From an uncultured Flavobacteriales bacterium (GTDB taxonomy: Bacteria > Bacteroidota > Bacteroidia > Flavobacteriales > BACL11), in assembly GCA_905181635.1 (NCBI GenBank), contig CAJIYM010000004.1, positions 204,264 through 268,263 on the forward strand: 64,000 bases of DNA, in the 5' to 3' direction. Numbering within the stretch: the stretch's first letter is position 1; every line of letters begins with the position of its first letter. The notes under the pieces were generated by a model. It made no database searches. It was not told where the DNA came from and saw only the letters and a program-made list of their open reading frames with translations. Below, piece by piece: positions 4,498-36,247 of this stretch. The translations under genes were made by a program, and so were the position numbers.

Positions 4498-4498
4498 T

Positions 4499-10071: not shown

Positions 10072-10449
10072 TTATCCTACTAATTCCTCATATGCTGAAG
10101 CGTCAAGTAACTCATCTAATTCGGTAACATCTGAAATAGTAATTTTAACAATCCAACCTTCCCCGTAAGGATCTGTATTAATTAATTCTGGATCATCCTC
10201 TAACTTTTCATTAAACGATAAAACCTCTCCATTTATTGGCATAAATAAGTCAGAAACAGTTTTAACAGCCTCTATTGATCCAAAAACCTCCTCTTTTTCG
10301 AGCTCTTCTCCTTCAGTATCTACATCAACAAAAACAATATCCCCTAACTCTCCTTGGGCAAATTCTGTAACACCAATATAGGCATTGCTTCCTTCAACTC
10401 TTAGCCATTCATGGTCCTTACTATATTTTAATTCTTTTGGAAATTCCAT
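10072..10449 (-). CDS. gcvH: Glycine cleavage system H protein
   Basis: This lipoyl-carrying protein shuttles the aminomethyl group in glycine cleavage. The 125 residues include the lipoylation site [12 protein letters not shown] with Lys63. A promoter box lies 13 nt upstream, so it can be expressed apart from sprA. Its position between sprA and tonB is typical of flavobacteria as I remember them. The P, T and L proteins are not in the window. Confidence 0.97.
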
Positions 10450-10462
10450 TTATTTTTTTTTT

Positions 10463-10470
10463 CAAAAATA
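10463..10470 (-). promoter_or_regulatory. Promoter -7 box of gcvH-tonB (TATTTTTG)
   Basis: TATTTTTG on the minus strand lies in the sprA-gcvH gap, 13 nt before the gcvH start. Confidence 0.5.
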
Positions 10471-10493
10471 CATTTTTTTGTTGGCAAATAAAA

Positions 10494-16400: not shown

Positions 16401-17642
16401 TTTTCGTGCTCTTTCTAATTTTTCAAAATCTGTTCCATTTGACAATGAAGTAGATTGCAATGTGCTATTAACATCATTAATATTTCGTATTCCAGCAAAT
16501 TGCGTAGTTAGGGAGGTAAACATATCATTCGCAGCAATATTATCAGGGAAATTACTATTGCCCGGAAAAGTAAATGCTGTATTATAAATATTTCCATTTG
16601 TTTCTCCTAAGTCTAAAAACGAAACAATATTTCTTGTATCGTTTGTAGTTCCTGTTTTATTGGTTACCCATACCTCAATTTTAGTAATATCTATTCCAGA
16701 ATTTATAAATGGTAAATTCTTTAACGCTTCATCATATTGATCTTTAAAGTAATGGGATAAGAAATAATGTTTATTAGCCTCATATTGATCAGCATACACA
16801 TCAAATTCAGATGTTTGCGCTCCACCACTAACTTCAATTTCTGATTTTGTACTTTTTTGCTGAGATAAAATTCCGGTAATAGTTGTACGTCCAAATTGCA
16901 ACTGTGTTTTAAAACCAAAAAGAGATTGACTTCCTGTAATTAATGTTCCATTTAATGGTAAACTTACATTTCCAATCTCTATCTTTTTTATAATTTCATC
17001 TTCGTATCCTGTATATTCCAATTTCATTTGATTCTCAAAATCAAAAGTACTTTCGGTATTAAAGTTAGTAGTTAGTTTTAGTTTATCACCAATTTTACCA
17101 ATCACATTCATTTGTATCTTTTCTTGAAAATCAAATGAAGTAGTTTTTCTTTGTTCTTCAGTTAAGGCAGGGTTATCCAATCTATTAGTTTTTAAACCAA
17201 AGATAAGTTCAGCAGAACCTTGAGGACGAATATCAACAGAATTACCACCAAAAATTTTATCAAATGCCTGACCAGGAATAAATAATTTAGGTAAGCCTAA
17301 AGCTGAAGTCAGATTACCTGCGCGTTCATTTGACCTATCATTCCAATAATCAGCAATAAAATTTTTCATTTTATATTGCTGATATTCTTTAAAATCCAGT
17401 GTAGTCGACCCCCCTAACATTAACCCTCCTATTTTACTCTGAAGAGTATATTGATTATTCAGAATATCATAAGTAACCTGTGACTTAATATTGCTAGGCG
17501 TGTTCATAAACATACCTCCGCTTTGATTGCCAGAAAAAGGATACACCAAAGAAGAATCGGAAGATTGCCCAAAAGCATGAGCATTTGCAAAAAACAATGC
17601 AAAAACTAATAAAAGTAAACTATGATTTCTAATGATTTTCAA
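10494..17642 (-). CDS. sprA: SprA, type IX secretion outer-membrane translocon
   Basis: SprA (Sov in Porphyromonas) forms the giant 36-strand outer-membrane barrel that releases type IX cargo, and it is needed for flavobacterial gliding. The 2382 residues fit the family's usual length of about 2300-2500. A signal peptide is visible (MKIIRNHSLLLLVFALFFAN followed by AHAFGQ). The rest is rich in alternating aromatic and polar strands and ends in a terminal strand GFSLRFTLAG. The frame is unbroken over 7.1 kb. It starts 15 nt after the ruvA stop, in the order maeB-ruvA-sprA-gcvH-tonB. Cargo with sorting domains is encoded nearby. Confidence 0.96.
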   Translation of the reverse strand: MKIIRNHSLLLLVFALFFANAHAFGQSSDSSLVYPFSGNQSGGMFMNTPSNIKSQVTYDILNNQYTLQSKIGGLMLGGSTTLDFKEYQQYKMKNFIADYWNDRSNERAGNLTSALGLPKLFIPGQAFDKIFGGNSVDIRPQGSAELIFGLKTNRLDNPALTEEQRKTTSFDFQEKIQMNVIGKIGDKLKLTTNFNTESTFDFENQMKLEYTGYEDEIIKKIEIGNVSLPLNGTLITGSQSLFGFKTQLQFGRTTITGILSQQKSTKSEIEVSGGAQTSEFDVYADQYEANKHYFLSHYFKDQYDEALKNLPFINSGIDITKIEVWVTNKTGTTNDTRNIVSFLDLGETNGNIYNTAFTFPGNSNFPDNIAANDMFTSLTTQFAGIRNINDVNSTLQSTSLSNGTDFEKLERARKLSESEYSFHRQLGYVSLNQALNNDEVLAIAFQYTIGSETFQVGELSTTGPNAPNTLILKLLKGTNFTPSLPNWNLMMKNIYAIGAYQMSEDGFILDVVYENTEESGALTNYLSEPEEQNVKGIPLIKLLNLDRLNKQMDVQSDGVFDYMEGITVRSSNGRIIFPVREPFGNHLVSKFNDPTIADKYSYQILYDSTLTVAQQFPEKNKFRLKGTYQSSSGAEIRLNAMNVPEGSVTVTAGSQKLIENQDYTVDYMLGRVTIINDGILSSGVPIKISLENNSMFGIQNKTLVGLHADYEINKDFLIGATMLNLTERPYTTKINSGDEPISNTIWGLDANYQTELPWLTTAIDKLPLIETKAKSRFIATAEFAHLIPGHHRAVGSEGVSYIDDFESSRTSIDIKNMGAWKLASIPQGQQNLFENSNENNNLILGFKRAKLAWYTIDPLFFRKTSITPPNVNKNLTLENGNTIAQQSYHYAREVLETEVFPNKDPNLGSQITNLSVLDLAYYPEERGPNNYTINGIDEYGKLITPNQSWGGIMRKLETNDFEASNIEFVEFWMMDPFNDEDGLSNHSGGDMYIHLGNVSEDILKDGYKSFENGLPNSAIVEDVDTTAWGRVPTNFSIVEAFDNDPTSREYQDVGMDGLRNTDEKLFFDSVYIQQLLTTYGAASSVYSNAVRDPSADDFHYFRGSDFDAKSVGILERYKNFNNTEGNSVTTDNSPESYPTAASSQPNTEDLNRDYTLSETESYFQYKVRLDPQEMNVGQNYISDVLETNVKTENGQTRNIKWYQFRVPVYQPDKSVGGIRDFKSIRFMRLVLTDFYEPIICRFATFDLVRGEWRRYNFSLAEPGEYLPSDDNGETTFDVSAVNIEENGNRSPINYVLPPGIEQEVDNTTTSLRQQNEQSLVLKVCNLKDGDSRATYKTSDIDLRTYKRIKMFVHAEGEEDNLKDEDLTCFLRLGTDFTSNYYEYEIALKPTEHGTTSPNNIWPSQNEIDIAFEIFKKAKQERNYNNTDVTSPYITFTSGGKVTVVGNPNLAQVKTIMIGVRNPKKKSIEDNDDGLSKCGQIWVNELRLTDFDEQGGWAANSRITTRLADFGNVTLSGNMSTIGFGSIEKKVNERQKYNAYQYDFSSTLNVDEVFPENYGLKIPMYIGRSQTIKNPQYNPLDPDLLLTESLESLPNKVAKNNLKNIVQDYVSRKSINFTNVRKTKIQKKGQKAKKARLYDIENVTVSYSKNETKIRNINTEYNRTVNYRGALTYNFNAQPNNIKPFSKINFPKSAYFRLIKDFNFNTMPKSFSFRTNIDRNYNETKMRNLSNSNMLIFPTYNKFFHWNRSYELKYDLTRSLKLDFSVNQQANIDEPAGKLDKSDPFFKDKIDSIWKNVWDYGRAKNYHQTFGMNYQLPLNKIPILNFISLNTRYNASYHWTASLPAISYLGNNIQNSNSKQYTGQINLTTLYNKVPFFKKLNQGSRKGRGRNTVKNRQDQEGDDAKRKFEFVKHITRFALGIKNVSINYSENQGTFLPGYLNLSKVLGQDWSSLSPGLPFVFGSQSDIRQLGGENGWITKSTDLNTMYKNNTSTNLTLRSTVEPIKQFRIELTANKTTSENYTEYYRWDDDIDNFNSFSPTESGSFSISFISLFTAFRGDNDNDESSVFNNFKNYRSNIAKQLADNNPNFNGGIDPVTGYPTEYINYPGDSSATLIGGYGATSQQVMIPAFLSAYSGSDPSKSKLTAFPAIPFPNWRITYDGFIKIPYIKKNFKQFSISHAYRSTYSISSYQTNLNYKDINKDGFTSEINFNNMSYHVQKEISQVTINEQFSPLFKVNMTWKNSLLTKVEIKRSRVLALSLANNQITETGSQEYIVGIGYRFKDVEFNFLSGGRGKKMSSDLDLKLDLNIRSNKTVIRKVIEDQQQLTMGQQIISVKFSADYVMNQRLNIKLFYDRVITNPFISTTFPGAITNAGFSLRFTLAG

Positions 17643-17657
17643 TTCCTAATATAGTAG

Positions 17658-18242
17658 TTACATTTGGCTTAATGCCGTTCTCACTAAATCTTCAACAGTT
17701 ACAATTTCAGGGTTTGATCTTAATACTTTATCTATTTTAGTTTCAGCCCCCTTTTTAGCAAATCCTAAAGCTAGTAATGCAGATAACGCCTCTGCCTTAA
17801 TAGTATTGTCTACAGCATCAAACAATAGATCAGAAGTAGGCATTCCTTTGGCGACCTTATCTTTTAAGTCAATAATAATTCTTTGGGCCGTTTTCGCACC
17901 TATTCCTTTCACACTTTGTACCGCTTTGACATCAGCACTAGTTATATGATGAATAATTTCCTGGGGAGAATAAGTTGATAGTATTACCTGAGCAGTACTT
18001 GGACCAACACCTGAAACAGAAATTAAATTTCGAAATAAATGACGTTCACTTTCTTGAAAGAAACCAAATAAAGTATGTGAATCTTCCTTTACAGAAAGGT
18101 GAGTATATAACTTACACAATTCTCCATCAATTGCAGAGAATGTTTGTAAAGATATTTTTATTTTATAACCTACACCATTAACATCAACAACAACATAGGT
18201 TGGTGTTTTTTCTAGTAATTTTCCGTGTATATGTGTTATCAT
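17658..18242 (-). CDS. ruvA: Holliday junction DNA helicase subunit RuvA
   Basis: RuvA binds four-way junctions and loads the RuvB motor. The 194 residues show the N-terminal OB domain ([20 protein letters not shown]), two helix-hairpin-helix motifs (LISVSGVGPSTAQVIL near 74 and VQSVKGIGAKTAQRII near 109) and the C-terminal RuvB-binding three-helix domain. The start overlaps the maeB stop as ATGA, which implies translational coupling. ruvB lies separately near 28.5 kb. Confidence 0.97.
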   Translation of the reverse strand: MITHIHGKLLEKTPTYVVVDVNGVGYKIKISLQTFSAIDGELCKLYTHLSVKEDSHTLFGFFQESERHLFRNLISVSGVGPSTAQVILSTYSPQEIIHHITSADVKAVQSVKGIGAKTAQRIIIDLKDKVAKGMPTSDLLFDAVDNTIKAEALSALLALGFAKKGAETKIDKVLRSNPEIVTVEDLVRTALSQM

Positions 18243-20509
18243 CTTTTTATTTGAGCATCGACAACCGACAAGGTTACCATATTAATAATTTCACGCACTG
18301 TACACCCTAACTGCAAGATATGTACTGGCTTTTTCATTCCAACTAAAATAGGACCAATTGAGTCAGCTTCTGCAACTTCTTGTATTAATTTATAAGCTAA
18401 ATTACCTGATTCAAGATTAGGGAAAATTAATGTATTTGCTTGCTTCTCTGCTAATTCCGAAAATGGAAAAATACCTGCCGTTTTCTCACTATTCAAAGCA
18501 AAGTCTACCTGTATCTCCCCTTCTACTATCAAATTAGGATTTCTTTCTTTCAAAAGAACTGTTGCTTTTGCCATTTTTGAAGATCCTTCAGTTCTTGTAG
18601 AACCAAAATTAGAATATGATAACAAGGCTAACCTTGGTGTTATATTGAATTTTTTAACCGACTTAACAATCATTTCACTCATATCAACTAATTCTTCAGC
18701 CGTAGGGCTTGTATTGATTGTTGTATCTGCTAAAAATAGCGTTCCTTTTTTAGTATTCATGATATACATCCCAGCTACCTTTTTCACATCATCCTGCTTA
18801 CCAATAACTTCAAGTGCAGGCTTAATTGTAGTTCTATAATTTCTTGAAATACCGGAAATTAAGGCGTCTGCCTCTCCATTTTCTACCATCATTGATCCAA
18901 AATAGTTACGCTCACGCATTAATTTTCTAGCTTCAAACTGAGTAAGTCCTTTTCTTTTTCTTTTTTCCCAAAGAATATCACCATACTCATCCCTTTTCTT
19001 TTCTTGCGAAATAGCTTTAGGATCTATAATGATTAAATCCTCAAGCTCAATAGAAAACTCCTCAATTAAATCAATGATTTTCTGTTTTCTTCCCAATAAA
19101 ATTGGAGTAGCAATCCCCTCATCACTTACCTGTTGAGCAGCCTTTAATATTTTATAATGCTCAGCCTCAGCAAAAACAACTTTTTTAGGATTTCGTTTTG
19201 CTCTAGCAGTTAAATTTCTGATTAACTTATTGTCTAGACCTAATCGTTTTTTTAAACTTTCACGGTACTTGTTCCAGTCTGGAATTTCCAACTTTGCCAC
19301 CCCACTTCTAATTGCCGACATAGCAACTGCAGGAGCTACAGCAGTAATTAATCTAGGATCTAAAGGTTTAGGAATAATATATTCGGAACCAAAGGTTAAA
19401 GTATTATCATCATATGCTAAATTAATTTCATCTAACACTGTTTCCTTAGCCAAATTAGCAATTGCCTTTACAGCTGCTAACTTCATATTTTCATTTATTT
19501 CAGTTGCTCTTACATCTAGGGAACCCCTAAAAATATAAGGAAAGCCTAGCACATTATTTACTTGATTAGGATGATCAGATCTTCCTGTGGCCATAATAAT
19601 GTCATCACGAGAAGCCATAGCATCTTTGTATGAAATCTCAGGATCGGGATTAGCTAAAGCAAATACAATTGGGCGTTTTGACATAGATTGAACCATTTCT
19701 GATGTAACAATATTTGCTACTGAAAGTCCTAAGAAAACATCTGCATTTTTCATAGCTTCATCTAGCGAATCACATCTTCTATTAGTTGCAAAAATTTTCT
19801 TATTACCTTTTAGCCCTTCCCTGTTTTGCTTAATAACTCCTTTGCTATCCAGCATGACAATATTTTCCTTTTTTACCCCTAAGGATAAGTATAATTTTGA
19901 GCAGGACATAGCTGCTGCACCTGCGCCGTTAACTACAATTTTAATTTTTGAAATATCTTTTTTGGCAATTTCTAAAGCATTCAATAAAGCAGCTGAAGAA
20001 ATAATAGCTGTCCCGTGCTGATCATCATGCATGACTGGAATATTAAGCTCTTCTTTAAGTCTTCTTTCAATTTCAAAACATTCTGGTGCTTTTATATCTT
20101 CTAGATTAATCCCCCCAAAAGTAGGAGCAATTGCTTTAACAGTTTGAACAAATGTATCAACGTCACTTGCATCGACTTCTATGTCAAAAACATCAATATC
20201 AGCGAAAATCTTAAATAATAATCCCTTCCCTTCCATTACTGGTTTTGATGCTTCAGGGCCTATATCTCCTAAACCTAACACTGCTGTTCCGTTTGAAATA
20301 ACAGCAACCAAATTTCCCTTGGCTGTGTATTTATAAACATCATCTTTTTTTTTCGAAATCTGCTTGCAAGGTTCGGCGACTCCAGGGGAATAGGCTAAAG
20401 AAAGTTCTCTTTGAGAACTATGTTGTTTGGTTGGCACAACCTCAATCTTACCAGGTCTTCCTTCTGCATGATAAGCCAAAGCCTCTTTCTTACTTATTTT
20501 TTCTGCCAT
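18239..20509 (-). CDS. maeB: NADP-dependent malic enzyme with phosphotransacetylase-like domain
   Basis: The enzyme decarboxylates malate to pyruvate and makes NADPH. The 756 residues hold an N-terminal malic enzyme half (about 1-420; [12 protein letters not shown] near 159 and the nucleotide-binding [12 protein letters not shown] near 191) fused to a C-terminal half (about 430-756) of the phosphate acetyl/butyryltransferase fold, for example [15 protein letters not shown]-type segments. In MaeB proteins that half is regulatory, binding acetyl-CoA. Its own promoter box lies 23 nt upstream, and the stop overlaps ruvA. Confidence 0.95.
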
Positions 20510-20622: not shown

Positions 20623-21309
20623 TTATTTTACAATCAATTTTTTAATTGAAACAACTTCATTATTCACTATTAAATTTCCAAAATAAATTCCTTTATTCAT
20701 ATCAGATAAATCAAGTTTTTTAACTCCCTTTTGGCTAAGTAAAATCTCTTTTACATTATTTCCTAGAATATCAATCAATTTTAGAGTTGCTAAACTACCA
20801 TTAAAATTAAAATAAACTATATCATTAGCAGGATTTGGATAGAAATCACCAATATTTGTATAGTATGGATTATCATTAACTGATGTAGCACTTCCATGGT
20901 AAGTAACTGTAAAGCATGTTCTATCAATTGTATCTGCAATAGGATAAAAACAATACTCGACAACTCCAATGCCTTGTTCACAATAGGCATCAAAATATCC
21001 TCCAAATGAAACTGCATCTCCTTGACCTGATTGCAGAGTTAAAAATTCACTAGAGACTATAGTGTTAGAACCATAACAAAGTCCTCCCCAACAAAAATAA
21101 TTTGACATACCAGCCGGCTGAGAGATTACATTTTTCTCGCAGGCAATAACATGTTCCTTGTTAGAAATATTTTTTACTGTCAAATTAGAATGTGTTGTGA
21201 GGCAAATATCAGAATTCAAAACAGAATTATCGCCAGTAACAACTAAACTTTGTGCAGCAACAAAGCTAATTTGCGTGATAACGAGTATGTAGAGTATAAT
21301 TTTTCTCAT
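20623..21309 (-). CDS. Secreted protein with type IX sorting domain, function unknown
   Basis: The 228-residue protein has a signal peptide (MRKIILYILVITQISFVAAQ), a middle of about 120 residues with six or more cysteines, and a C-terminal type A sorting domain starting near NIGDFYPNPANDIVYF (about residue 150) and ending KLIVK. The domain marks it for export by SprA and surface attachment. The middle resembles no family I recognise and looks like a small beta-rich domain, possibly disulfide-bonded. It has its own promoter box and terminator. Confidence 0.85.
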   Translation of the reverse strand: MRKIILYILVITQISFVAAQSLVVTGDNSVLNSDICLTTHSNLTVKNISNKEHVIACEKNVISQPAGMSNYFCWGGLCYGSNTIVSSEFLTLQSGQGDAVSFGGYFDAYCEQGIGVVEYCFYPIADTIDRTCFTVTYHGSATSVNDNPYYTNIGDFYPNPANDIVYFNFNGSLATLKLIDILGNNVKEILLSQKGVKKLDLSDMNKGIYFGNLIVNNEVVSIKKLIVK

Positions 21310-21444: not shown

Positions 21445-23007
21445 ATGAAAAAAATATTACTGATTGCAGTGGTTGCACTACTATCACTAAACAATGTAAA
21501 AGCACAGCTACCTGATGGGTCAGTTGCTCCAAACTTTACTTTAACGGACTTAGATGGTAATAGTCATGACTTGCATGCCTTACTTGATCAAGGATATACT
21601 GTTTTTCTTGATTTTTCAGCAATTTGGTGTCCTCCTTGTTGGAGTTATCACACTGGAGGAGCTTTGGAAGATTTATATATGAATCACGGCCCTGCAGGAT
21701 ATCCAAATGTTAACGCTAACACAACTGATGATGTAATGGTGTTTTTCATTGAGGGTGATGGAGGAACCTTAGCAGAACTAAATGGAGGGGCTGGATCACA
21801 AGGAGACTGGGTTACTGGAACTCCTTACCCAATACTACCTACATATGCTGGATCTAATAGTGATCAAGTTACCTCAGATTATCAAATTGGATATTGGCCA
21901 ACTGTATATCAAGTATGTCCTGATAGGATAGTAACTGAATGTGGACAGTCAGCTAATCCTTATTCTTTAGTAGGTGCATGTCCTGCTCCTGCATCAAACG
22001 ATAATGATGCTAGAACATTTGATTATGCTGGTGAAACTCTAACTTGTGAAGGTGACATAGTACCAGAAATTATGATTCAAAATTATGGTCTTGTAAACCT
22101 TACATCTTTATCAATTGACGTGGCGGTTAACGGAACTAGTGTATCTACTACACCTTGGACAGGAAATTTAACAACATACGCAACTGATAACATTATATTA
22201 CCTGTGTTAACTGGATTAACAAGTAATGATGCGGTTACTATCAATACGAGTTATCCTAATGGAATGATTGATTCAGATCCATCTAACAACCCAACCGCTG
22301 CATTCTATGTTTCTTTAGCAACACAAAACACTAACACTTTTATAACTGTTCAAATTGTAACTGACGCATATGGATCAGAAACTACATGGGATATTAAAGA
22401 TGCAAACGGAATGATAGTTTTATCTGGAGGCCCTTACAGTGATTTAGGTGCTAATGGCACAACTATTGAAACTCCTGTTTCAGGAACTTTAAACACAAAT
22501 GAATGTCACACATTTACAATTTATGATTCTTATGGAGATGGAATAAATGCTGGATATGGTACTGGTTCTTTTTCAGTAACTGATGGAAGTGGTACAGTTT
22601 TAACTTCAGGAGGCGTATTTACAGATATTGATGGTGGTGCATTCAAAACAGGTTCTCAAGGCGGACCACCTGCTTCTTGGGATTGTGATGCTATCAACGG
22701 ATGTGTAGATCCCGGTACAGGTTCAGGGTTATATACTTCAATAACTGATTGTAATGCAGCATGTAGTGCAACTGATGTAAGTGAAGTGATTTCAAACCTT
22801 TCAATGTACCCTAACCCTGCAAAAGATGTATTAACGATTGAAGGCTCTTATACTTCTATTGAAATCGTTGATGTATTTGGTAAAGTAGTTTTATCATCAG
22901 AATATGTTAAAACTATTAATGTTAAGTCACTATCTGATGGTGTTTATATGCTAAACATTAAAACAGAAAATGGTATTGCTGTAAAGAAAATTACTGTAGC
23001 TAAGTAA
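21445..23007 (+). CDS. Secreted thioredoxin-like protein with type IX sorting domain
   Basis: After a signal peptide (MKKILLIAVVALLSLNNVKA) comes a thioredoxin/redoxin domain of about residues 25-180 with the active site WCPPC at 61-65. It is followed by beta-rich extracellular modules (about 185-410), a cysteine-rich linker at about 412-441 (CDAINGCVDPGTG pattern, four or more Cys) and a type A sorting domain from about 451 ending KKITVAK. The CxxC suggests disulfide exchange on or outside the cell surface, but the substrate is unknown. A strong terminator separates it from the downstream operon that starts with another TlpA-type protein. Confidence 0.88.
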   Translation: MKKILLIAVVALLSLNNVKAQLPDGSVAPNFTLTDLDGNSHDLHALLDQGYTVFLDFSAIWCPPCWSYHTGGALEDLYMNHGPAGYPNVNANTTDDVMVFFIEGDGGTLAELNGGAGSQGDWVTGTPYPILPTYAGSNSDQVTSDYQIGYWPTVYQVCPDRIVTECGQSANPYSLVGACPAPASNDNDARTFDYAGETLTCEGDIVPEIMIQNYGLVNLTSLSIDVAVNGTSVSTTPWTGNLTTYATDNIILPVLTGLTSNDAVTINTSYPNGMIDSDPSNNPTAAFYVSLATQNTNTFITVQIVTDAYGSETTWDIKDANGMIVLSGGPYSDLGANGTTIETPVSGTLNTNECHTFTIYDSYGDGINAGYGTGSFSVTDGSGTVLTSGGVFTDIDGGAFKTGSQGGPPASWDCDAINGCVDPGTGSGLYTSITDCNAACSATDVSEVISNLSMYPNPAKDVLTIEGSYTSIEIVDVFGKVVLSSEYVKTINVKSLSDGVYMLNIKTENGIAVKKITVAK

Positions 23008-23030
23008 TTCTATACAACATATAATCCAAT

Positions 23031-23062
23031 AAAAAACCCTGAATTTTTCAGGGTTTTTTATT
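23031..23062 (+). terminator. Rho-independent terminator after the thioredoxin-like cargo gene
   Basis: The stem AAAAAACCCTG / CAGGGTTTTTT with a short loop and a T-run follows the stop codon by about 25 nt. Confidence 0.85.
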
Positions 23063-23115
23063 ATATCTTAATTCAGCTATTATTATTAAATTAGCCAAAA
23101 ATAAAAACAAATAAA

Positions 23116-23610
23116 ATGAGAAAACTATTTTTATCGATTTTAGCAACTACACTCTTTTCGACTATAAGTATTGCTCAAAGCAGATCTTTACCTTCTGTAG
23201 ATTTAAAAACACTTAATGGCGGTAGTATTAATATTTCAGAAATAGAGAATAATGGCAAGCCAATTGTAATAAGTTTCTGGGCTACATGGTGTAAACCTTG
23301 TAAAAAAGAACTTAATACTATTGCAGAGGTCTATGAAGATTGGCAAGATGAAACAGGTGTAAAGCTTGTGGCTATTTCAATTGATAATTCAAGATCAATG
23401 GGTAAGGTCGCACCTTATGTTAATGCATCTGACTGGGATTATGAAGTTTATATAGATCAAAATGGTGATTTAAAAAGGGCAATGGGAATTTCAACAGTAC
23501 CACATACATTTTTATTAAACAGTAAAAAAGAAATAATTTGGCAACACAAAGGATATGTTGATGGCGATGAAGATGAGCTGTTTGAACAAATTAAAAAACT
23601 AGCACACTAA
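23116..23610 (+). CDS. Periplasmic TlpA-family thiol-disulfide protein
   Basis: The 164 residues comprise a signal peptide (MRKLFLSILATTLFSTISIA) and a TlpA/ResA-type redoxin domain with the active site WCKPC at 58-62 and a cis-proline region STVPHTFLL near 131. It lacks a lipobox, so it should be soluble in the periplasm. It begins a compact operon; its stop overlaps the next start by one base. Neighbouring proteins also carry cysteine pairs and may be its partners, which is inference. Confidence 0.92.
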   Translation: MRKLFLSILATTLFSTISIAQSRSLPSVDLKTLNGGSINISEIENNGKPIVISFWATWCKPCKKELNTIAEVYEDWQDETGVKLVAISIDNSRSMGKVAPYVNASDWDYEVYIDQNGDLKRAMGISTVPHTFLLNSKKEIIWQHKGYVDGDEDELFEQIKKLAH

Positions 23611-25244
23611 TGTTAAAAAAAATAACCTATACTTTAATTTTATCCTTTTTAGCACTTAATGGTTTCTCTCAAAATAATAGTAGTGAAATTCACGGAAACT
23701 TTGATTTGAACATGCAAAGCTATCAAGAGGATGAACTTATTGGTGCAGAAGCAGCTGATGAAATTATTCTTAATAACGCTTACTTAAACATTAATTACAC
23801 GAAAGGTGATTTTATTGCTGGCTTGCGTTACGAAAGCTATCTAAATGCACTTCTAGATTTTGATGATAGTTATAAAGGAAATGGGATTCCATTCCGCTAT
23901 GCCTCATATACTGTTGATGGGCTTGAAGTAACCGCTGGAAACTATTACGAACAAATTGGAAGCGGATTAATTTTCAGAAGCTATGAAAACAAAGGCTTAG
24001 GGGTTGATAACGCAATGGATGGAATTCGCTTAAAATACAGTCCATTAAAAGGGGTTTATTTAAAGACATTTATAGGAAAGAGCAGAACTTATTTTACTTA
24101 TGCTGATGGCATAATCAGAGGAGCTGATGCTGAAGTTAATATTAATGAAGTTTTAAATTTTGAATCAAAAACAAGAATAATTATTGGGCAAGGGTTCATA
24201 AGTAGATTTCAAGCAGATATCAATCCTAAATTTAAATTACCTCAGAATGTTGCTGCCTATTCATCTCGTTTAAATATAATAAATGGAGGATGGAACTATT
24301 CAGGAGAATATGCAATTAAGCTAAACGACCCTGTAGGATCGCTAACTACTGAAGGAAATAATTATGCAAATGGAAATGCATTAATGAGTAGTCTTACCTA
24401 CTCAAAAAGAGGATTTGGGATTATAGCGGAAATGCATAGAGTAGATCACATGGAATTCCGCTCAGAAAGAGCTCAAGAAAAACAATATATAATCAATTAC
24501 ATACCTACACTAACCAAGCAACATACTTATACTTTATTAGCCCTTTACCCATCTGCAACTCAGTCAGAAGGTGAGTTTGGTACTCAAATTGATGTATTCT
24601 ATAAAATTAAAAAGGGTAGTCTTTTAGGGGGGAAATATGGCACAAAAATAATATTTAATTTTTCTAGGATTAATGCTCTAAATGGAGGAAACTCATACTT
24701 GAATGACAATGAGGAGCACAATCCAATGTTTGTTAGTATTAAAGGAGAAGAACTATACTACAGAGATATAAACTTAGAGATCTACAAAAAAATTAATAAG
24801 AGAATTCAAGTAACTGCTATATTAGCTAAACAATCCTACAATAAAGATGTATTAGAAGGAAAAACGCCTGGAACTTACGGAGTCGTTGAATCCACTATTG
24901 CTATTGCAGATATAAGTTATAAAATTAAGAAAGGGCATACTATTCGTATTGAATTGCAAGAATTATTAGCTGACGGTGGGGAAGGAAGTTGGAGTATGGG
25001 ATTAGCAGAATATACTATATCTCCAAATTGGTTTTTTGCAGTACAAGACATGTACAACTGGGGGAATAATAAAGCAAGTAAGCAACTACATTATGTAAAT
25101 ATAAATTGTGGCTTCTTAAAAGGAGCTAACAGAATTGCTATTGGATATGGGAAAAAAAGAGCAGGAATTTTCTGCGTTGGAGGAGTATGCAAAGAAGTTC
25201 CTTCATCAAACGGATTTAGTTTAACAATATCTTCAAGTTTTTAA
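23610..25244 (+). CDS. Outer-membrane barrel-like protein of DUF6029 type
   Basis: The 544 residues start with a signal peptide (ending ALNGFSQ) and are dominated by amphipathic beta strands, finishing with a terminal strand GFSLTISSSF. This is the pattern of an outer-membrane beta-barrel. Near the C-terminus two cysteines, Cys522 and Cys527, form a C-VGGV-C motif. From memory this resembles the Bacteroidota family DUF6029, which is often next to TlpA and Omp28 genes. Function is unknown. It is coupled to tlpA by a one-base overlap and to the Omp28-like gene with a 1-nt gap. Confidence 0.7.
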   Translation: MLKKITYTLILSFLALNGFSQNNSSEIHGNFDLNMQSYQEDELIGAEAADEIILNNAYLNINYTKGDFIAGLRYESYLNALLDFDDSYKGNGIPFRYASYTVDGLEVTAGNYYEQIGSGLIFRSYENKGLGVDNAMDGIRLKYSPLKGVYLKTFIGKSRTYFTYADGIIRGADAEVNINEVLNFESKTRIIIGQGFISRFQADINPKFKLPQNVAAYSSRLNIINGGWNYSGEYAIKLNDPVGSLTTEGNNYANGNALMSSLTYSKRGFGIIAEMHRVDHMEFRSERAQEKQYIINYIPTLTKQHTYTLLALYPSATQSEGEFGTQIDVFYKIKKGSLLGGKYGTKIIFNFSRINALNGGNSYLNDNEEHNPMFVSIKGEELYYRDINLEIYKKINKRIQVTAILAKQSYNKDVLEGKTPGTYGVVESTIAIADISYKIKKGHTIRIELQELLADGGEGSWSMGLAEYTISPNWFFAVQDMYNWGNNKASKQLHYVNINCGFLKGANRIAIGYGKKRAGIFCVGGVCKEVPSSNGFSLTISSSF

Positions 25245-25245
25245 T

Positions 25246-26133
25246 ATGAAAAATATAATCACACTTTTTAGTTTAATTTTAATTATCACATCATGTGATA
25301 TTATTGAAGGACCTTATGAAATTGACACAGAAAATATTGCACTTACAGACACTACCACTTATGTCAAAAAAATATTAATTGAAGATTTTACAGGCCATAC
25401 ATGTCAAAATTGCCCATCAGCTGCAAGAGAACTAGAAGCAATACATAGTCTTTATGGAGATCGGATTATCGGTATGGCGCTACATGTCAGCAAATCATTT
25501 GCAAGACCTTACCCTTTAAGCCAAGCACCAAATTATCAATATGATTTCAGAACAAAGTGGGGAAAAGAATGGGATGAATTATTTGGGATTTCTGAGATGG
25601 GACTGCCAGGAGGAATGATTAACAGAACAGGATACCCAAGTGGACATAGACTCGGTAAAGATGAATGGCTGGCTAGAGTAATCACTGAGCTAGAAAAAGA
25701 AACTGATTTTGGCATTAGTATTTCTGTAAATGAAGGGATAATAACTGTCCAAACAGAAATATTAAATAATATAAATGGGGATTATAATTTAGTAGTTTGT
25801 ATAATTGAAAGTAATATTATCAACTGGCAAAAAGATGGATCTGAAGATGTTGAAAATTACGAACACAATCACGCTTTAAGGTCTTTACTTTCTAATGAAA
25901 ATTTAAGTACTTCAAGTAATTATTCTATCTCTGATAAAATTGAAAAAATAATCAATTATGATTTAATCTCTTTAGAACAATTTAATATTAATTATTCTGA
26001 AAATACAGCAGAACTAGGCAATGGAAATTCAGGAGGATGGGATGCTTTAAATATGTCAGTTATTGCTTATATTTATGACAATACTAATAAAGAAATACTA
26101 CAAGTTGAAGAAGCTCATTTAATGAATAAATAA
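25246..26133 (+). CDS. Omp28-related outer-membrane lipoprotein
   Basis: This 295-residue lipoprotein has a lipobox with Cys17 (IITSC) and then the Omp28-like segment KKILIEDFTGHTCQNCPSAA with a CxxC at Cys53 and Cys56, placed where a thioredoxin-fold active site would be. The remainder is a mixed alpha/beta and beta-rich region. Omp28 was first described in Porphyromonas as a surface antigen; its biochemical role is unclear. In this operon, beside TlpA and a barrel with a cysteine pair, a thiol-exchange role is plausible but unproven. Confidence 0.85.
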   Translation: MKNIITLFSLILIITSCDIIEGPYEIDTENIALTDTTTYVKKILIEDFTGHTCQNCPSAARELEAIHSLYGDRIIGMALHVSKSFARPYPLSQAPNYQYDFRTKWGKEWDELFGISEMGLPGGMINRTGYPSGHRLGKDEWLARVITELEKETDFGISISVNEGIITVQTEILNNINGDYNLVVCIIESNIINWQKDGSEDVENYEHNHALRSLLSNENLSTSSNYSISDKIEKIINYDLISLEQFNINYSENTAELGNGNSGGWDALNMSVIAYIYDNTNKEILQVEEAHLMNK

Positions 26134-26143
26134 ACTTAACATT

Positions 26144-27073
26144 ATGAAAAAAAATCTATTAACAATCTTGGCAATCTTTTCTGGATTAAGTTCTTTTGGT
26201 CAAATCCAAAATATTCTTGCAGATGACATTGCACAAGGAGGAAAACTTATTGAAGCCTATTTCTCTCCAATGGCTGAAAGTTTTGGGACAGGTTTAAATA
26301 GTGGGTGGTATAATACTGCAAGACCACACAGTTTAGGTGGCTTTGATCTAACATTTACTATAAATACTGTTATTATCCCAAATTCTGCAGAAACTTTTAA
26401 TATTGAGGATGCTGGTGGGGGAACTTTTAATTCCACTAAAGATAAAGCATCTACTATATTTGGAAGCTCTGATGTAACTGCAATGACATATAACAATACA
26501 GATTTTGATATGCCTGGAGGATTTAAAACTCCTGCAATACCATTACCTATGATTCAAGCAGGTATTGGTTTAATTAAAAATACGGCTATTGACATAAGGT
26601 ACATGCCAATGTTAAATGTTGGCGATAATATTAATGTAAATCTATTTGGAGTTGGAGTAAAACATGATTTATTACAATGGATACCTGGAATTGGTAATGC
26701 TATTCCAATGAGCCTTTCATTTCAAGGAGGTTACACCTCTTTGAATACAGAATTAAAAATAGCTGGACAAAAAGTTTCTCTTCAGACTAAGGCTACTACT
26801 GTTAATTTAGTTGCATCAAAAAAAATATTAATGATCACTGGCTATATTGGATTAGGATACAACTCAGCAAGTACAACTTTTATGACAGATGCTAATTTTG
26901 ATTTAGGTGGAATTCAATTTGAAGAAAAATTAGAAGTAGATTTTATATCTAATAAAAATTTAAGGAAAAATATTGGATTAAGATTAAATCTAACTCTAGT
27001 AACAATTCAGGCAGATTATACTTTTGCAGACTACCCAACAGCTACTTTAGGTGTTGGTGTTAGTTTAAGATAA
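26144..27073 (+). CDS. DUF6588-type envelope protein
   Basis: The 309-residue protein has a signal peptide (ending LSSFGQ) and a glycine- and aromatic-rich beta pattern compatible with an outer-membrane barrel. The region ADDIAQGGKLIEAYFSPMAE just after the signal, and the extended strands that follow, resemble the Bacteroidota family DUF6588 as I remember it. There are no cysteines in the mature part, unlike its upstream neighbours. It is the fourth gene of the operon, 10 nt after the Omp28-like gene. Function is unknown. Confidence 0.7.
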   Translation: MKKNLLTILAIFSGLSSFGQIQNILADDIAQGGKLIEAYFSPMAESFGTGLNSGWYNTARPHSLGGFDLTFTINTVIIPNSAETFNIEDAGGGTFNSTKDKASTIFGSSDVTAMTYNNTDFDMPGGFKTPAIPLPMIQAGIGLIKNTAIDIRYMPMLNVGDNINVNLFGVGVKHDLLQWIPGIGNAIPMSLSFQGGYTSLNTELKIAGQKVSLQTKATTVNLVASKKILMITGYIGLGYNSASTTFMTDANFDLGGIQFEEKLEVDFISNKNLRKNIGLRLNLTLVTIQADYTFADYPTATLGVGVSLR

Positions 27074-27074
27074 T

Positions 27075-27677
27075 ATGAGAAAGACATTTACACTATTGCT
27101 TTGTTGTTTATTTTTTTCAATAAGCATTAAAGCACAGAGTTTTGGAGGGGGAATGATTCTAGGGCTTAGTACGTCACAGGTTTCTGGAGACAATTTAGGA
27201 GGTTTTAAAAAAGCAGGATTGTTAATTGGAGGCTTTATTGATTTGCAACTTAATAATGTAGTAAAGGGTCAAATGGAAATGACTTTTATTCAGAAAGGCA
27301 GTAATAATCCAAATATGAACGAAAATAGCTATTCAGACATTAGTTTATCTTATGTTGAAATCCCGGTACTTATAAAATATCAACAAAGCCGTACAATAGC
27401 GATTGAAGGAGGAATTGAAACTGCATTTCTAATTTCTGCTTCTGATAATGATATTTACGGTCAGATTTCCGCCAACAGTTCAAAAAAATTCAATAGAACA
27501 GATATTAGTATTTTTATAGGAATTAATTATTTTATTAATAATCGATTAATATTAAATAGTCGAATCAGTAATTCTATTCTGCCAATAAGAGCACATGCTT
27601 CAGGTACTACTTTTCAATTTAACAAAGGACAATACAATTCTGTAATGAGTTTCGCATTACACTACTTTCTATTATGA
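27075..27677 (+). CDS. Small outer-membrane beta-barrel protein (porin-family-like)
   Basis: The 200 residues have a signal peptide (ending FSISIKAQ) and alternating strand pattern, with SYVEIPVLIKYQ near residue 93 typical of the Bacteroidota PorT/OMP_b-brl type barrels, and a C-terminal strand ending FALHYFLL. It begins 1 nt after the previous stop and overlaps ubiX by 4 bp. It could be a channel or a structural barrel; nothing specific can be said. Confidence 0.75.
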   Translation: MRKTFTLLLCCLFFSISIKAQSFGGGMILGLSTSQVSGDNLGGFKKAGLLIGGFIDLQLNNVVKGQMEMTFIQKGSNNPNMNENSYSDISLSYVEIPVLIKYQQSRTIAIEGGIETAFLISASDNDIYGQISANSSKKFNRTDISIFIGINYFINNRLILNSRISNSILPIRAHASGTTFQFNKGQYNSVMSFALHYFLL

Positions 27678-28246
27678 ACACAAAACACAAAATAATAATT
27701 TCAGTTTCAGGAGCAAGCGGATCAATATACGCAAAGGTCCTATTTGATAAATTAGTACAACTAAAAGAACAAATAGAAGTAGTTGGCGTTTTAATGAGCG
27801 AAAACGCAAAATATGTATGGCAAACAGAGTTAGGCAATTCAAATTACAATAATTATCCTTTTACTTTTTATGAGAAGATGGATTTTATGGCTCCCTTTGC
27901 AAGTGGCTCGGCAAATTTTGGTACAATGATTATTTGTCCTTGCTCAATGGGAACTATGGGAAGGATTGCTACAGGAATAAGTAATGATTTAACAACTAGA
28001 GCTGCTGATGTTATCTTAAAAGAAAGAAGGAAACTCGTAATTGTAGCCAGAGAAACACCACTTAGTTTAATTCATATTAATAATATGAAAATTATCACTG
28101 AAGCAGGAGGAATTATATGCCCTGCAACTCCATCATTTTATAGCAATCCGCAAAACTTTGAAGAACTTGCTGCCACTGTAATTGATCGAGTTTTGATGCT
28201 AAGTGGTTTAGAGAATAAATCATATAGTTGGGGAGAAAAACAATAA
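27674..28246 (+). CDS. ubiX: Flavin prenyltransferase UbiX
   Basis: UbiX makes the prenylated FMN cofactor used by UbiD-type decarboxylases. The 190 residues contain the FMN-binding ISVSGASGSIYAKVL near residue 8, the CPCSMGTMGRIATGISNDL segment near 90, and ARETPLSLIHI near 132. Its start overlaps the preceding barrel gene as ATGA, so it is the last cistron of the envelope operon by position. No ubiD-like gene is in the window. Confidence 0.94.
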   Translation: MNTKHKIIISVSGASGSIYAKVLFDKLVQLKEQIEVVGVLMSENAKYVWQTELGNSNYNNYPFTFYEKMDFMAPFASGSANFGTMIICPCSMGTMGRIATGISNDLTTRAADVILKERRKLVIVARETPLSLIHINNMKIITEAGGIICPATPSFYSNPQNFEELAATVIDRVLMLSGLENKSYSWGEKQ

Positions 28247-29574: not shown

Positions 29575-30795
29575 TTAAGTGTGTAAGTTCTGACTTTCTT
29601 CTAAAAAAGGATGATGCTTTACTTCAATATTTCTTTTAGCTAAATTTGACATGAAAACTCTTAAGAAAAATCCAAGAAAACCAATACCTACACCTATCTC
29701 AAGTAATCCTAGATGTCCATGCTCATGTAGTGTTCCTGGGGCAAACAATAGATATGAATTAATCCAATGTCCAATTAAAATGACTAAACAAACAAATACA
29801 AGACGATTCCTATTTCTCTTAGCATCTCTACTCATCAGAAAGAGTGTTGGAACAATAAAATTAATTGCAAGACTAAACCAGAAAAGAAATCTATAATTTT
29901 CGAGCTCTATTCTTTCAAGATGATAGGTAACTTCCTCAGGTATATTTGCATACCAAATTAGCATAAATTGCGAGAACCACATATAAGTCCATACAATGGA
30001 AAAAGCAAAAATTAACTTTCCTAAATCATGAATATGACTATCGTTTAAATGCTTTAAATAACCTTGCTTGTTAAGCAATAATGCTAACAATAAAATTGAT
30101 GTAAAACCAATTGTGGCCCACTCACTGAAAATATACCAACCAAATAATGTACTAAACCAATGTGCATCAATAGACATAATCCAATCCCAAGAAGCAGTTG
30201 AAGAAGTCACAGCAAATAATACAATAAACCATGCAGACACTTTAAGACCCTTCCAATATGACTTTTCACCAATACCACCTTCATTGTCACCATCTAAAGA
30301 AATTTGCCTTAATCTTTTTGCGCAATATAGCCAAATACCGACATATAAAAATGACCTAAAAAGAAAAAACATTGAATTTAAATACGGTTCCTTTCCTGCT
30401 ATTATTTTATCATAATTAGGAGCGCCCTCAGTCATAATACCATCTTCTAGCCAATGATAAATATGGTTACCTCCAAAATGAAAAACAGCAGTCACTACAA
30501 TAAATAACATAACAAAGCAAGTGTAAGGCAAAAAGGTCATTATAGCTTCAGGCACTCTTTTGATAGCTATAGACCAACCGGCTTCGGCAACATGTTGTAA
30601 TGCAATAAAAAATACAGCAAATATAGAAATACCAAGAAAGAAATAATTATTAAACAATAGATTTGTCCAAGCAGCATGATTATCAAAAATAAATGCAATT
30701 GCAATTGAAAATAGCCCAATTATAATCATAACCAATGAGGCTACACTCAAATTCTTATTTAGAGTATACATATTTATATTATCTAATTTATTCAT
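29575..30795 (-). CDS. actF: Alternative complex III subunit ActF
   Basis: ActF is one of the membrane subunits of the quinol:cytochrome c oxidoreductase called alternative complex III. The protein is about 406 residues with about ten hydrophobic helices, including FFLGISIFAVFFIALQHVAEAGW near the N-terminus and WDWIMSIDAHWFSTLFGWYIF in the middle, matching the ActF family. The start at 30795 (MNKLDNINMYTL) overlaps ActE by 8 bp; a longer frame from 30831 would overlap by 44 bp and is less likely. It ends the operon. Confidence 0.92.
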   Translation of the reverse strand: MNKLDNINMYTLNKNLSVASLVMIIIGLFSIAIAFIFDNHAAWTNLLFNNYFFLGISIFAVFFIALQHVAEAGWSIAIKRVPEAIMTFLPYTCFVMLFIVVTAVFHFGGNHIYHWLEDGIMTEGAPNYDKIIAGKEPYLNSMFFLFRSFLYVGIWLYCAKRLRQISLDGDNEGGIGEKSYWKGLKVSAWFIVLFAVTSSTASWDWIMSIDAHWFSTLFGWYIFSEWATIGFTSILLLALLLNKQGYLKHLNDSHIHDLGKLIFAFSIVWTYMWFSQFMLIWYANIPEEVTYHLERIELENYRFLFWFSLAINFIVPTLFLMSRDAKRNRNRLVFVCLVILIGHWINSYLLFAPGTLHEHGHLGLLEIGVGIGFLGFFLRVFMSNLAKRNIEVKHHPFLEESQNLHT

Positions 30796-31372
30796 TACTG
30801 TAATTCTGAAGTGCTTGAACATATAAAACAACCTTCCATCTTTCTTCTTCTGTTAGCTGAGAAGAATGAGGTCCCATTGCATTTAAGCCATAAGTAATTG
30901 CATGAAATATCTGCCCTGTAGTTAATTCTCGCATAGTGTTGCCTGATCTCCTAAGCAGAACACTGTCGTTATAGTGAGGGATAGCAGAGTATACTGGATG
31001 AGTTATTGATCCTCCCCCTGCGCCATTAGGCCCATGGCAATGCTTACAAAACATTGCATAAAGAGCTTTACCTTCACCAGTATTTTTATCATTAGTGTCA
31101 TATGGGTTAGTAGCTTTTTTCCCTGCAAGTAGATAATCTTCTTGACTAGGCCCAAAACTAAATGTTGTCAAATAGCCTCTTGCAATAGTACCTTTTACGG
31201 GATCTCTAGCATTAAGGCTATCACTAAAAACTTTGTTTTTTCCATATGTTTCTAAAGATGGAGAACGATACATATCTGGCATATACTCATACCCTCTACC
31301 ATCATTACCACAAGAAGCAAGCAACAAACCAATACTGCAAATTATAAAAAATTTAGCTTTCATCTTTCTCAT
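30788..31372 (-). CDS. actE: Alternative complex III subunit ActE, monoheme cytochrome c lipoprotein
   Basis: ActE passes electrons from the multiheme subunit to the acceptor. The 194 residues have a lipobox (LLLASC, Cys21), then a class I cytochrome c domain with the heme site CKHCH near residue 110 and a distal Met candidate in NAMGPHSSQL. Two in-frame ATG codons are possible (31372 and 31363); both overlap the actD end and either gives a normal signal sequence. Confidence 0.94.
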   Translation of the reverse strand: MRKMKAKFFIICSIGLLLASCGNDGRGYEYMPDMYRSPSLETYGKNKVFSDSLNARDPVKGTIARGYLTTFSFGPSQEDYLLAGKKATNPYDTNDKNTGEGKALYAMFCKHCHGPNGAGGGSITHPVYSAIPHYNDSVLLRRSGNTMRELTTGQIFHAITYGLNAMGPHSSQLTEEERWKVVLYVQALQNYSNE

Positions 31373-31889
31373 TTATTTCAGTAACATTAGATTTTTCAAG
31401 TAATCTTACAACATTATTTTTATCTTCATTATAAAGAATTTCAACTAAGAATTTATCATCAGTCGTCCTTGGATCAGGGCTTGTTGTTTTGCTACCCGGA
31501 TATAAATTATTTCTAATTAAATACGTAATTGACATTAAATGAGCTGCAAAAAGTACGGTACACTCAAAAATAATTGGAACAAAAGAAGGAAGGTTATGGT
31601 AAAATGTAGAATTTGGTTTCCCTCCTATATTCATTGGCCAACTTTTTCCAACGCCCGAAATCATAATGTAATAAATCAAAAGTCCTCCAAAACTTAGTCC
31701 AATACAGCCATAAATAAATGCTGTAATAGCCATTCTTGTCTCCTTAAGACCTAAAATAGGGTCAAGACCATGTATTGGAAATGGACTATACACTTCATTA
31801 ACAACTATATTGCTGTCTTTTAAGTCTTTAACAACTGTCAAGACATCTTGTTCATCATCAAAAATTGCATGTATAATTTTATCTCTCAT
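31353..31889 (-). CDS. actD: Alternative complex III subunit ActD (DUF3341)
   Basis: This 178-residue subunit has a soluble N-terminal region (HAIFDDEQDVLTVVKDLKD) and two hydrophobic segments near residues 53-75 and 105-125, matching the DUF3341 family that forms ActD. The motif VNEVYSPFPIHGLDPILGL near residue 30 is characteristic. It lies between actC (2-nt gap) and actE (20-bp overlap). Confidence 0.94.
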   Translation of the reverse strand: MRDKIIHAIFDDEQDVLTVVKDLKDSNIVVNEVYSPFPIHGLDPILGLKETRMAITAFIYGCIGLSFGGLLIYYIMISGVGKSWPMNIGGKPNSTFYHNLPSFVPIIFECTVLFAAHLMSITYLIRNNLYPGSKTTSPDPRTTDDKFLVEILYNEDKNNVVRLLEKSNVTEINEKDES

Positions 31890-31891
31890 TT

Positions 31892-33265
31892 TTACTTTTT
31901 ATATTCAGAACCTGATGATTTGAGTATACTCTTTATCTCAGCTTGCGCAATAACAGGAAATGCTCTTGCATAAAGTAGAAATAAAACAAAAAAGAATCCA
32001 ATTGTTCCAACAAAAATTCCAATATCAATAAAGGTAGGTGAAAACATAGTCCATGATGAAGGAAGAAAATCTCTATGAAGAGAAGTAACAATAATTACAA
32101 AACGTTCAAACCACATTCCTATATTAACAAATATTGACAATATAAATGTAGCTACAAATGAGGTTCTTATTTTATATATCCAATAAAGTTGAGGAATTAC
32201 CACATTACAAGTCATCATACTAGCATATGCCCACCAATAAGGTCCTGTTGCACGATTTAGGAATGCATACTGTTCAAATTCCACACCTGAGTACCAAGCC
32301 ATAAAAAGTTCTGTAATATACGCAACTCCAACTAAAGAACCTGTGAAGAGAATAATGACATTCATATATTCTATATGCTTAATGGTAATGTAAGCCTCCA
32401 TATTAACAACCTTTCTCATGATAATTAATAATGTTTCAACCATAGCAAATCCCGAAAAAAGTGCTCCAAGAACAAAATAAGGCGGGAATATTGTAGTATG
32501 CCATCCTGGGATAATAGAGGTAGCAAAATCCATACTTACAATCGAATGTACAGAAAAAACAAGAGGTGTAGCAAGACCGGCTAACACTAAGCATACCTCC
32601 TCAAACCTTTGCCAATGTTTAGCCTTACCACTCCATCCAAACGCCATTAAACCATAAAGATTCTTCTTCATTGGGGATAATTTCTTGTCAATTCTATCCC
32701 TAAGCATTGCAAAATCTGGAATTAAACCAATATACCAGAAGACACAAGAAACGGAAAAATAAGTTGAAATAGCAAATACATCCCACAATAAAGGTGAGTT
32801 AAAGTTAACCCACAATGAACCAAACTGATTTGGTATTGGGAAAACCCAATAAGCTAACCAGGGCCTACCCATGTGTATAAGTGGGAATAGTGCTGCTTGA
32901 GCTACTCCAAAAATAGTCATTGCTTCAGCAGATCTATTAATAGCCATTCTCCATTTCTGTCTAAACAATAATAAAACTGCAGAAATTAATGTACCAGCAT
33001 GTCCAATACCAATCCACCATACAAAATTAGTGATATCCCAAGCCCAATTAACTGTTCTATTTAAACCCCAAGCACCTATACCAGTCCCAATTGTGTATGC
33101 CATACAAGCAAAACCCCACAACATCAAAACTGCAGCTAAAGAAAATAAAATCCACCAATACTTGTTTGCCTTACCTTCAACAGGTCTTGCAATATCTCTT
33201 GTTATATCATGATAAGTCTTGTTTCCAAGAATTAAAGGATCTCTTATTTTTGATTCTTTTTGCAT
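31892..33265 (-). CDS. actC: Alternative complex III subunit ActC (NrfD-like)
   Basis: ActC is the NrfD/PsrC-type membrane subunit that holds the quinol site next to ActB. The 457 residues carry about ten membrane helices, with family segments such as VNWAWDITNFVWWIGIGHAGTLIS near 68 and WHTTIFPPYFVLGALFSGFAM near 256. The start touches the actB stop by a shared base. Confidence 0.95.
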   Translation of the reverse strand: MQKESKIRDPLILGNKTYHDITRDIARPVEGKANKYWWILFSLAAVLMLWGFACMAYTIGTGIGAWGLNRTVNWAWDITNFVWWIGIGHAGTLISAVLLLFRQKWRMAINRSAEAMTIFGVAQAALFPLIHMGRPWLAYWVFPIPNQFGSLWVNFNSPLLWDVFAISTYFSVSCVFWYIGLIPDFAMLRDRIDKKLSPMKKNLYGLMAFGWSGKAKHWQRFEEVCLVLAGLATPLVFSVHSIVSMDFATSIIPGWHTTIFPPYFVLGALFSGFAMVETLLIIMRKVVNMEAYITIKHIEYMNVIILFTGSLVGVAYITELFMAWYSGVEFEQYAFLNRATGPYWWAYASMMTCNVVIPQLYWIYKIRTSFVATFILSIFVNIGMWFERFVIIVTSLHRDFLPSSWTMFSPTFIDIGIFVGTIGFFFVLFLLYARAFPVIAQAEIKSILKSSGSEYKK

Positions 33266-36243: not shown

Positions 36244-36247
36244 TTTA

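Follow-up and report, generated by a model that had tools for sequence, protein, structure and literature searches.

A cluster of three adjacent genes in Bacteroidota, encoding a TlpA-like oxidoreductase, a DUF6029 outer-membrane barrel, and an Omp28-type lipoprotein, is best explained as an outer-membrane thiol-disulfide module acting on PorA-family surface proteins, a reading that we hold tentatively, at just short of even confidence. The component families are known, and it is their combination and the tie to PorA that are new. An earlier note on the 64,000-nt window (i.e., the whole stretch of DNA that was analyzed) had described three tight consecutive genes with WCKPC, CVGGVC, and CQNC motifs; the open reading frames, Pfam identities, and motifs all proved to be as described. 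The note had also proposed a joint thiol-redox function, which is now well supported by conserved gene order, near-universal cysteine motifs, and TlpA-DUF6029 fusions, and had called a relay in these families undescribed, which holds as far as our literature search reached. The three-gene unit is real, and two points are added to the earlier picture: the barrel cysteine pair is predicted to sit on the last extracellular hairpin and not at the periplasmic end, and more genes than these three belong to the unit.

The core genes are arranged head to tail on the + strand. The first (23116-23610) encodes a TlpA/ResA-like exported thiol-disulfide oxidoreductase with an AhpC-TSA/Redoxin fold that scores above the Pfam cut-off (1.6e-20) and carries its WCxxC motif as WCKPC (23287-23301); it also matches the ResA model NF002854 (3.4e-24), and its closest relative in the PDB is 2m72 (E 7.8e-46). 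A 1-bp TAATG overlap joins it to the second gene (23610-25244), which encodes the DUF6029 outer-membrane barrel (PF19494, 6.4e-176), with residues 3-544 aligning to positions 2-538 of the profile at 586.6 bits, against a cut-off of 27. A 1-nt gap separates the barrel gene from the third gene (25246-26133), which encodes the Omp28-type lipoprotein, with Cys17 in its lipobox (ITSC17) and CQNC (25402-25413) in a thioredoxin-like N-terminal half. This protein matches PF11551 (1.7e-16; 61.0 bits versus a cut-off of 34.9) and, in the PDB, Omp28 itself (2r2c, E 1.8e-5); its relatives keep the starting sequence C-D-x-[IV]-x-x-P. Against NCBIfam NF033782, it scores 128.7 bits (2.3e-37), below the curated cut-off of 150 bits, and on that score it is a relative of the family rather than a protein named by the model. 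A weak match to an NCBIfam family of Omp28-related selenoproteins gives a hint that the CxxC of Omp28 can be redox-active.

Between the gene at 21445-23007 and tlpA is a terminator-like inverted repeat with T tracts (23027-23063; not assigned to a strand, reported on the - strand), in a region where the number of terminator-like sites is not above that in shuffled sequences. With this repeat separating the core from the redoxin gene upstream, tlpA is probably the first gene of the operon, which probably continues through the co-directional genes for a DUF6588 protein, a small outer-membrane barrel, and UbiX (26144-28246, +). These three genes were considered as parts of the core and rejected: none of the loci retrieved contains a relative of DUF6588 (0/80 named loci; see below), and the other two are nearby only in some lineages (small barrel, 20/80; UbiX, 16/80).

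The conservation of the core was assessed in two sets of loci. When 395 genomes from across the GTDB phylum were searched for the DUF6029 family, 98 had it; the loci were fetched and their gene order read, with the window TlpA as query, and we treat this phylum-wide set as unbiased. A second, named set of ~80 loci was found via the barrel cysteine motif and was excluded from judging cysteine conservation. The barrel motif, C-x2-G-x-C, is present in 96/96 intact DUF6029 members of the phylum-wide set, down to ~20% identity, in a count from which three members were excluded, two as truncated and one as doubtful. Only one other cysteine column is common to at least six sequences, and it lies in the signal peptide; the mature protein has hardly any cysteine besides the pair. 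TlpA is immediately upstream of DUF6029 (position -1) in 75 of the 96 unbiased loci, as opposed to 0-2 loci for each of the other upstream offsets, and CxxC is present in all 75 of these relatives; a cruder motif scan, on either strand, places TlpA beside the barrel in 83/97. Position +1 holds an Omp28 protein resembling that of the window, always with CxxC, in 30/97 loci of the unbiased set and in 73/79 of the named set. In much of the remaining unbiased set, position +1 is taken by other thioredoxin-fold proteins with CxxC (CPHC, CPLC, and CPPC types), and the linkage of the cluster is repeated in the 80 named genomes. Hence, neither of the doubts attached to the original reading, that the cysteines might vary among orthologs or that the genes might rarely be neighbors, is borne out.

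Several DUF6029 loci have no adjacent TlpA. In family f34 (L096, L103, L105, L106, L113, L117, and L119), the DUF6029-Omp28 pair is kept with no TlpA directly upstream. In L074, L077-L086, and their relatives, the gene or two genes after DUF6029 encode TlpA-like proteins with a DsbA-like CPHC motif, one of them with a tail like those of type IX secretion system (T9SS) proteins; a PorA-like gene is absent from G065, the single genome with this locus type that was tested.

Further evidence of joint action comes from genome G292, in which tlpA and the DUF6029 gene form one 667-residue protein with a single signal peptide, WCVPC, a short linker, and a barrel ending in CVGGVC. A second species of the same genus has the same in-frame fusion, again with no second signal peptide. 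The natural fusion, at 5439-7442 of L101, puts TlpA at the N-terminus of the barrel, i.e., on the periplasmic side, and constitutes strong evidence that the two proteins act together.

The most informative partners were missed by the earlier note: a PorA homolog, a T9SS-secreted WCPPC protein just upstream of the core, and SprA three genes beyond. In Porphyromonas gingivalis, deletion of porA lowers PorXY-SigP signaling and T9SS expression, and PorA, which has a FimH-like Ig domain, is on the cell surface also when the T9SS translocon is missing (PMC7712824). PorA is a main partner of Sov-PorV in this species (PMC8754138), and it has been said to be confined to Porphyromonas (PMC7712824). The window gene at 20623-21309 (-) encodes 228 residues with an Ig-like domain and a T9SS C-terminal sorting domain (Por_Secre_tail 7.7e-12; PF18962, 45.8 bits; TIGR04183, 38.7 bits). 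No Pfam family covers the Ig-like domain, which contains a C-x4-C pair (C73/C78, within FCWGGLCY; codons 21076-21093). Our first PorA-like profiles included the C-terminal domain (CTD) and ran into other T9SS proteins, and were replaced by a CTD-free profile. Searched against the whole PDB, the CTD-free family profile has a single match, the structure of the PorA N-terminal domain from P. gingivalis (6kjk; E 2e-6), in which LCFGQC aligns on the cysteine pair of the family. An AlphaFold2 (AF2) model of the window protein likewise has 6kjk as its top match, with a Z of 13.5 at 2.3 A for 116 aligned residues, against 10.7 for the entry ranked second, while Foldseek returned generic Ig folds, with PorA first only in a second comparison. 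The cysteine pair is present in nearly all members of the PorA-like family. On these profile and model comparisons, the protein is a PorA homolog.

A blind search in the reverse direction, with a PorA fragment against 395 Bacteroidia genomes, returned three weak matches. Two are inside TlpA-DUF6029-Omp28 clusters; the third is on a contig that breaks off next to genes for a sirtuin, malic enzyme, and RuvA, the same genes that flank one of these clusters. The fragment searches covered three families and one class, and no Porphyromonas genome was among those drawn. Family members vary in architecture: L044 encodes a 495-aa PorA-like protein with tandem FCFDVCF-type domains, adjoining a second PorA-like protein, and those of L031, L032, and L034 have an extra N-terminal GCCxC/KCCxC ahead of the usual FCSGQACY. 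In L118, whose genome gave no SprA match, DUF6029 is followed by a gene (3390-5459) for two Omp28 segments flanking a beta-rich insert with ICAGGQC. Its interpretation as an Omp28-PorA fusion is not supported (HMM score of -4 bits; hhalign probability of 4%), the motif being the only likeness to PorA.

In 35/97 unbiased and 41/80 named loci, a small PorA-like protein with a cysteine pair is encoded no more than a few genes away from DUF6029, and the association extends beyond linkage, since the PorA-like gene is often on a different contig from DUF6029. PorA-like genes were found in 27 of 40 genomes with DUF6029 but in only one of 40 without it, the exception being G049 (C9:239946-240371). Counted by family, the contrast is 15/23 versus 1/17; kinship of the genomes inflates the significance of these comparisons, yet the pattern is plain. 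Among genomes with a T9SS, as judged by SprA, the counts are 27/39 with DUF6029 versus 1/29 without. SprA was found in 39 of the 40 DUF6029-positive genomes, and 29 of the 40 DUF6029-negative genomes also have a T9SS. Around the window, 11 of the 12 genomes tested (its own and those of relatives) have a PorA-like gene. Conversely, 12-13 of the 40 DUF6029-positive genomes tested, including Balneola-type members, have no PorA-like match, so PorA cannot be the sole client.

Other T9SS genes are close to the core in the window. The gene at 21445-23007 (+) encodes a T9SS-secreted redoxin/thioredoxin-like protein with WCPPC (Por_Secre_tail 1e-14; its Redoxin match, at 6.9e-6, falls slightly short of the Pfam cut-off), and many relatives have a similar T9SS thioredoxin-like gene at position -2 of DUF6029. 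SprA/Sov, the T9SS outer-membrane translocon, is encoded at 10494-17642 (-; TIGR04189, 2669 bits; PF14349, 9.5e-205), in a row of genes beside the unit that comprises gcvH, SprA/Sov, ruvA, and malic enzyme (10072-20509, -). Adjacency to SprA was considered as a phylum-wide feature and rejected: only 7/80 named loci have SprA within 6 kb of DUF6029, none of the phylum-wide set does, on the limited flanks available, and the arrangement is probably local to a few lineages. On the other side of the unit is an Alternative complex III-like respiratory cluster (29575-37465, -), with a MoCo-extended oxidoreductase/Fe-S protein, a multihaem cytochrome c, and further cytochrome genes.

For the barrel, AF2, run with 64 sequences, predicts 24 strands with a mean pLDDT of 92. 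The loops that follow odd-numbered strands average 16 residues and the turns that follow even-numbered strands 3.8, which suggests that the odd-to-even loops are extracellular. In the model, C522 and C527 (C522-V-G-G-V-C527; codons 25173-25190) are in a small hairpin (residues 519-530; 25164-25199, +) within the last extracellular loop, between strands 23 and 24; a periplasmic site for the pair was rejected on these predicted loop lengths. The earlier suggestion of a relay from periplasm to outer membrane is affected accordingly: because the pair is predicted to be on the extracellular side, such a relay would need a step across the barrel.

The barrel could instead be an ordinary transporter of a polysaccharide, metal, or small solute, with TlpA and Omp28 only maturing its one disulfide, and with the PorA linkage due to common regulation or to crowding at the surface. 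A disulfide hairpin may be invariant for structural reasons, and the possibility that the invariant surface disulfide is purely structural also counts against the module acting on PorA. The only mention of DUF6029 in the literature that we found is a passing HHpred likeness to Wzi-like export porins (PMC9603273), and porins rank high in our own fold comparisons. However, no polysaccharide (including OPX) or metal genes are among the window neighbors scanned, and two dedicated oxidoreductases would be a costly way to mature one disulfide. Together with the unlinked PorA co-inheritance and the TlpA fusion, which a transporter leaves unexplained, these points make this explanation unlikely.

Rather doubtful is the idea that DUF6029 is an usher-like secretion pore for the PorA family, through which the folded Ig-like domain would pass while TlpA and Omp28 make or shuffle its disulfide. 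The closest solved folds are indeed the FimD and PapC usher pores (Z 18.4 for 3ohn, 374 residues aligned), the N-terminal domain of PorA resembles FimH, P. gingivalis PorA can be at the surface without the translocon (PMC7712824), and PorA and DUF6029 co-occur strongly. However, OccK/OprD-type porins score almost equally (Z 17.8), the Foldseek TM is only 0.46, and the AF2 model consists of signal peptide and barrel only, with no plug and no N- or C-terminal periplasmic usher domains. Thus, the fold comparison points to a large barrel and not to an usher, and we do not claim usher membership. Moreover, the PorA homologs bear T9SS sorting domains, PorA binds Sov-PorV (PMC8754138), and many DUF6029 genomes have no PorA. 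Quite improbable is a general periplasmic/outer-membrane disulfide repair for many T9SS cargoes, with a periplasm-facing Omp28 and no specific PorA role, since, although 39/40 DUF6029 genomes have a T9SS and several T9SS-tagged thioredoxin-like genes lie alongside, T9SS-positive genomes without DUF6029 are common (29/40) and have a PorA-like gene in only 1/29 cases, which argues for a client narrower than all T9SS cargo.

For the module acting on PorA-family proteins, we infer the following relay, of which each step, along with any complex among the proteins, is a proposal. The inner-membrane protein DsbD would reduce TlpA, and DsbD-family proteins are encoded in 12/12 relatives tested, making such reduction possible. 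TlpA would dock where the 24-strand barrel opens to the periplasm, or part of the way into it, and exchange disulfides with the C-x2-G-x-C hairpin, either at its outer face or in the lumen. The Omp28 lipoprotein, acting as a putative surface oxidoreductase, would pass the redox state on to the PorA cysteine pair and to T9SS-secreted thioredoxin-like proteins, and T9SS activity might then be set or reported, via PorA, through PorXY-SigP. The flow is more likely to be reductive and outward, because TlpA is ResA-like and DsbD is present. In the boldest reading, a trans-outer-membrane thiol conduit in which TlpA plugs the DUF6029 pore, thiol-disulfide equivalents reach the surface cysteine hairpin, and Omp28 toggles the PorA pair would couple surface redox to T9SS control across Bacteroidota; we consider this reading unlikely.

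Several known systems resemble parts of the proposed module. The window TlpA is of the same family as TlpA/ResA/StoA, which work with DsbD/CcdA; in those systems, the partner is an inner-membrane cytochrome or spore pathway, whereas here it is an outer-membrane barrel, fused to TlpA in one genus. DUF6029 shares a large barrel and a similar strand order with FimD/PapC and OccK/OprD, but has its cysteine hairpin in the last extracellular loop and no plug or periplasmic domains. In MtrCAB-type conduits, a barrel lets redox equivalents cross the outer membrane via haem wires; the idea of a barrel conduit is common to both, although here it would be thiols, if anything, that carry them, and we see no evidence of homology. 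We know of no thiol-based conduit across the outer membrane. HBP35, a surface T9SS thioredoxin of P. gingivalis with reductase/thioredoxin activity (PMC2907840), is an earlier case of thiol chemistry at the cell surface in a bacterium with a T9SS, but is a single cargo with no known tie to an outer-membrane barrel. Our literature search found no link between T9SS and an outer-membrane thiol module.

The P. gingivalis locus may have a comparable layout, in which PG2174 would be DUF6029 and PG2175 would be TlpA. PorA (PG2172/PGN_0123) and an Omp28 lipoprotein (PG2173) have consecutive locus tags (PMC7712824, PMC9722745), and PG2174 is described as an uncharacterized vesicle protein (PMC9722745, PMC4335976). 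P. gingivalis PorA, with its ties to PorXY-SigP and Sov-PorV that are known from this species only, and the window protein are alike in their Ig-like domain, T9SS sorting domain, and cysteine-pair position. Where the literature has a protein of Porphyromonas only, with a cysteine pair to which the 6kjk publication assigns no redox role, we find a phylum-wide family co-inherited with DUF6029.

These findings bear on what activates PorXY-SigP control of type IX secretion. PorA had been regarded as peculiar to Porphyromonas, and the authors who discovered it reasoned that further factors have to act between PorA at the surface and the inner-membrane sensor PorY (PMC7712824). PorA now gains a phylum-wide family, an overlooked conserved cysteine pair, and co-inherited thiol-redox partners in the periplasm, in the outer membrane, and, according to the predictions, at the cell surface. 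The question of how PorXY-SigP is activated thus becomes directly testable, and the proposed role, if true, would be the first function for DUF6029 and Omp28.
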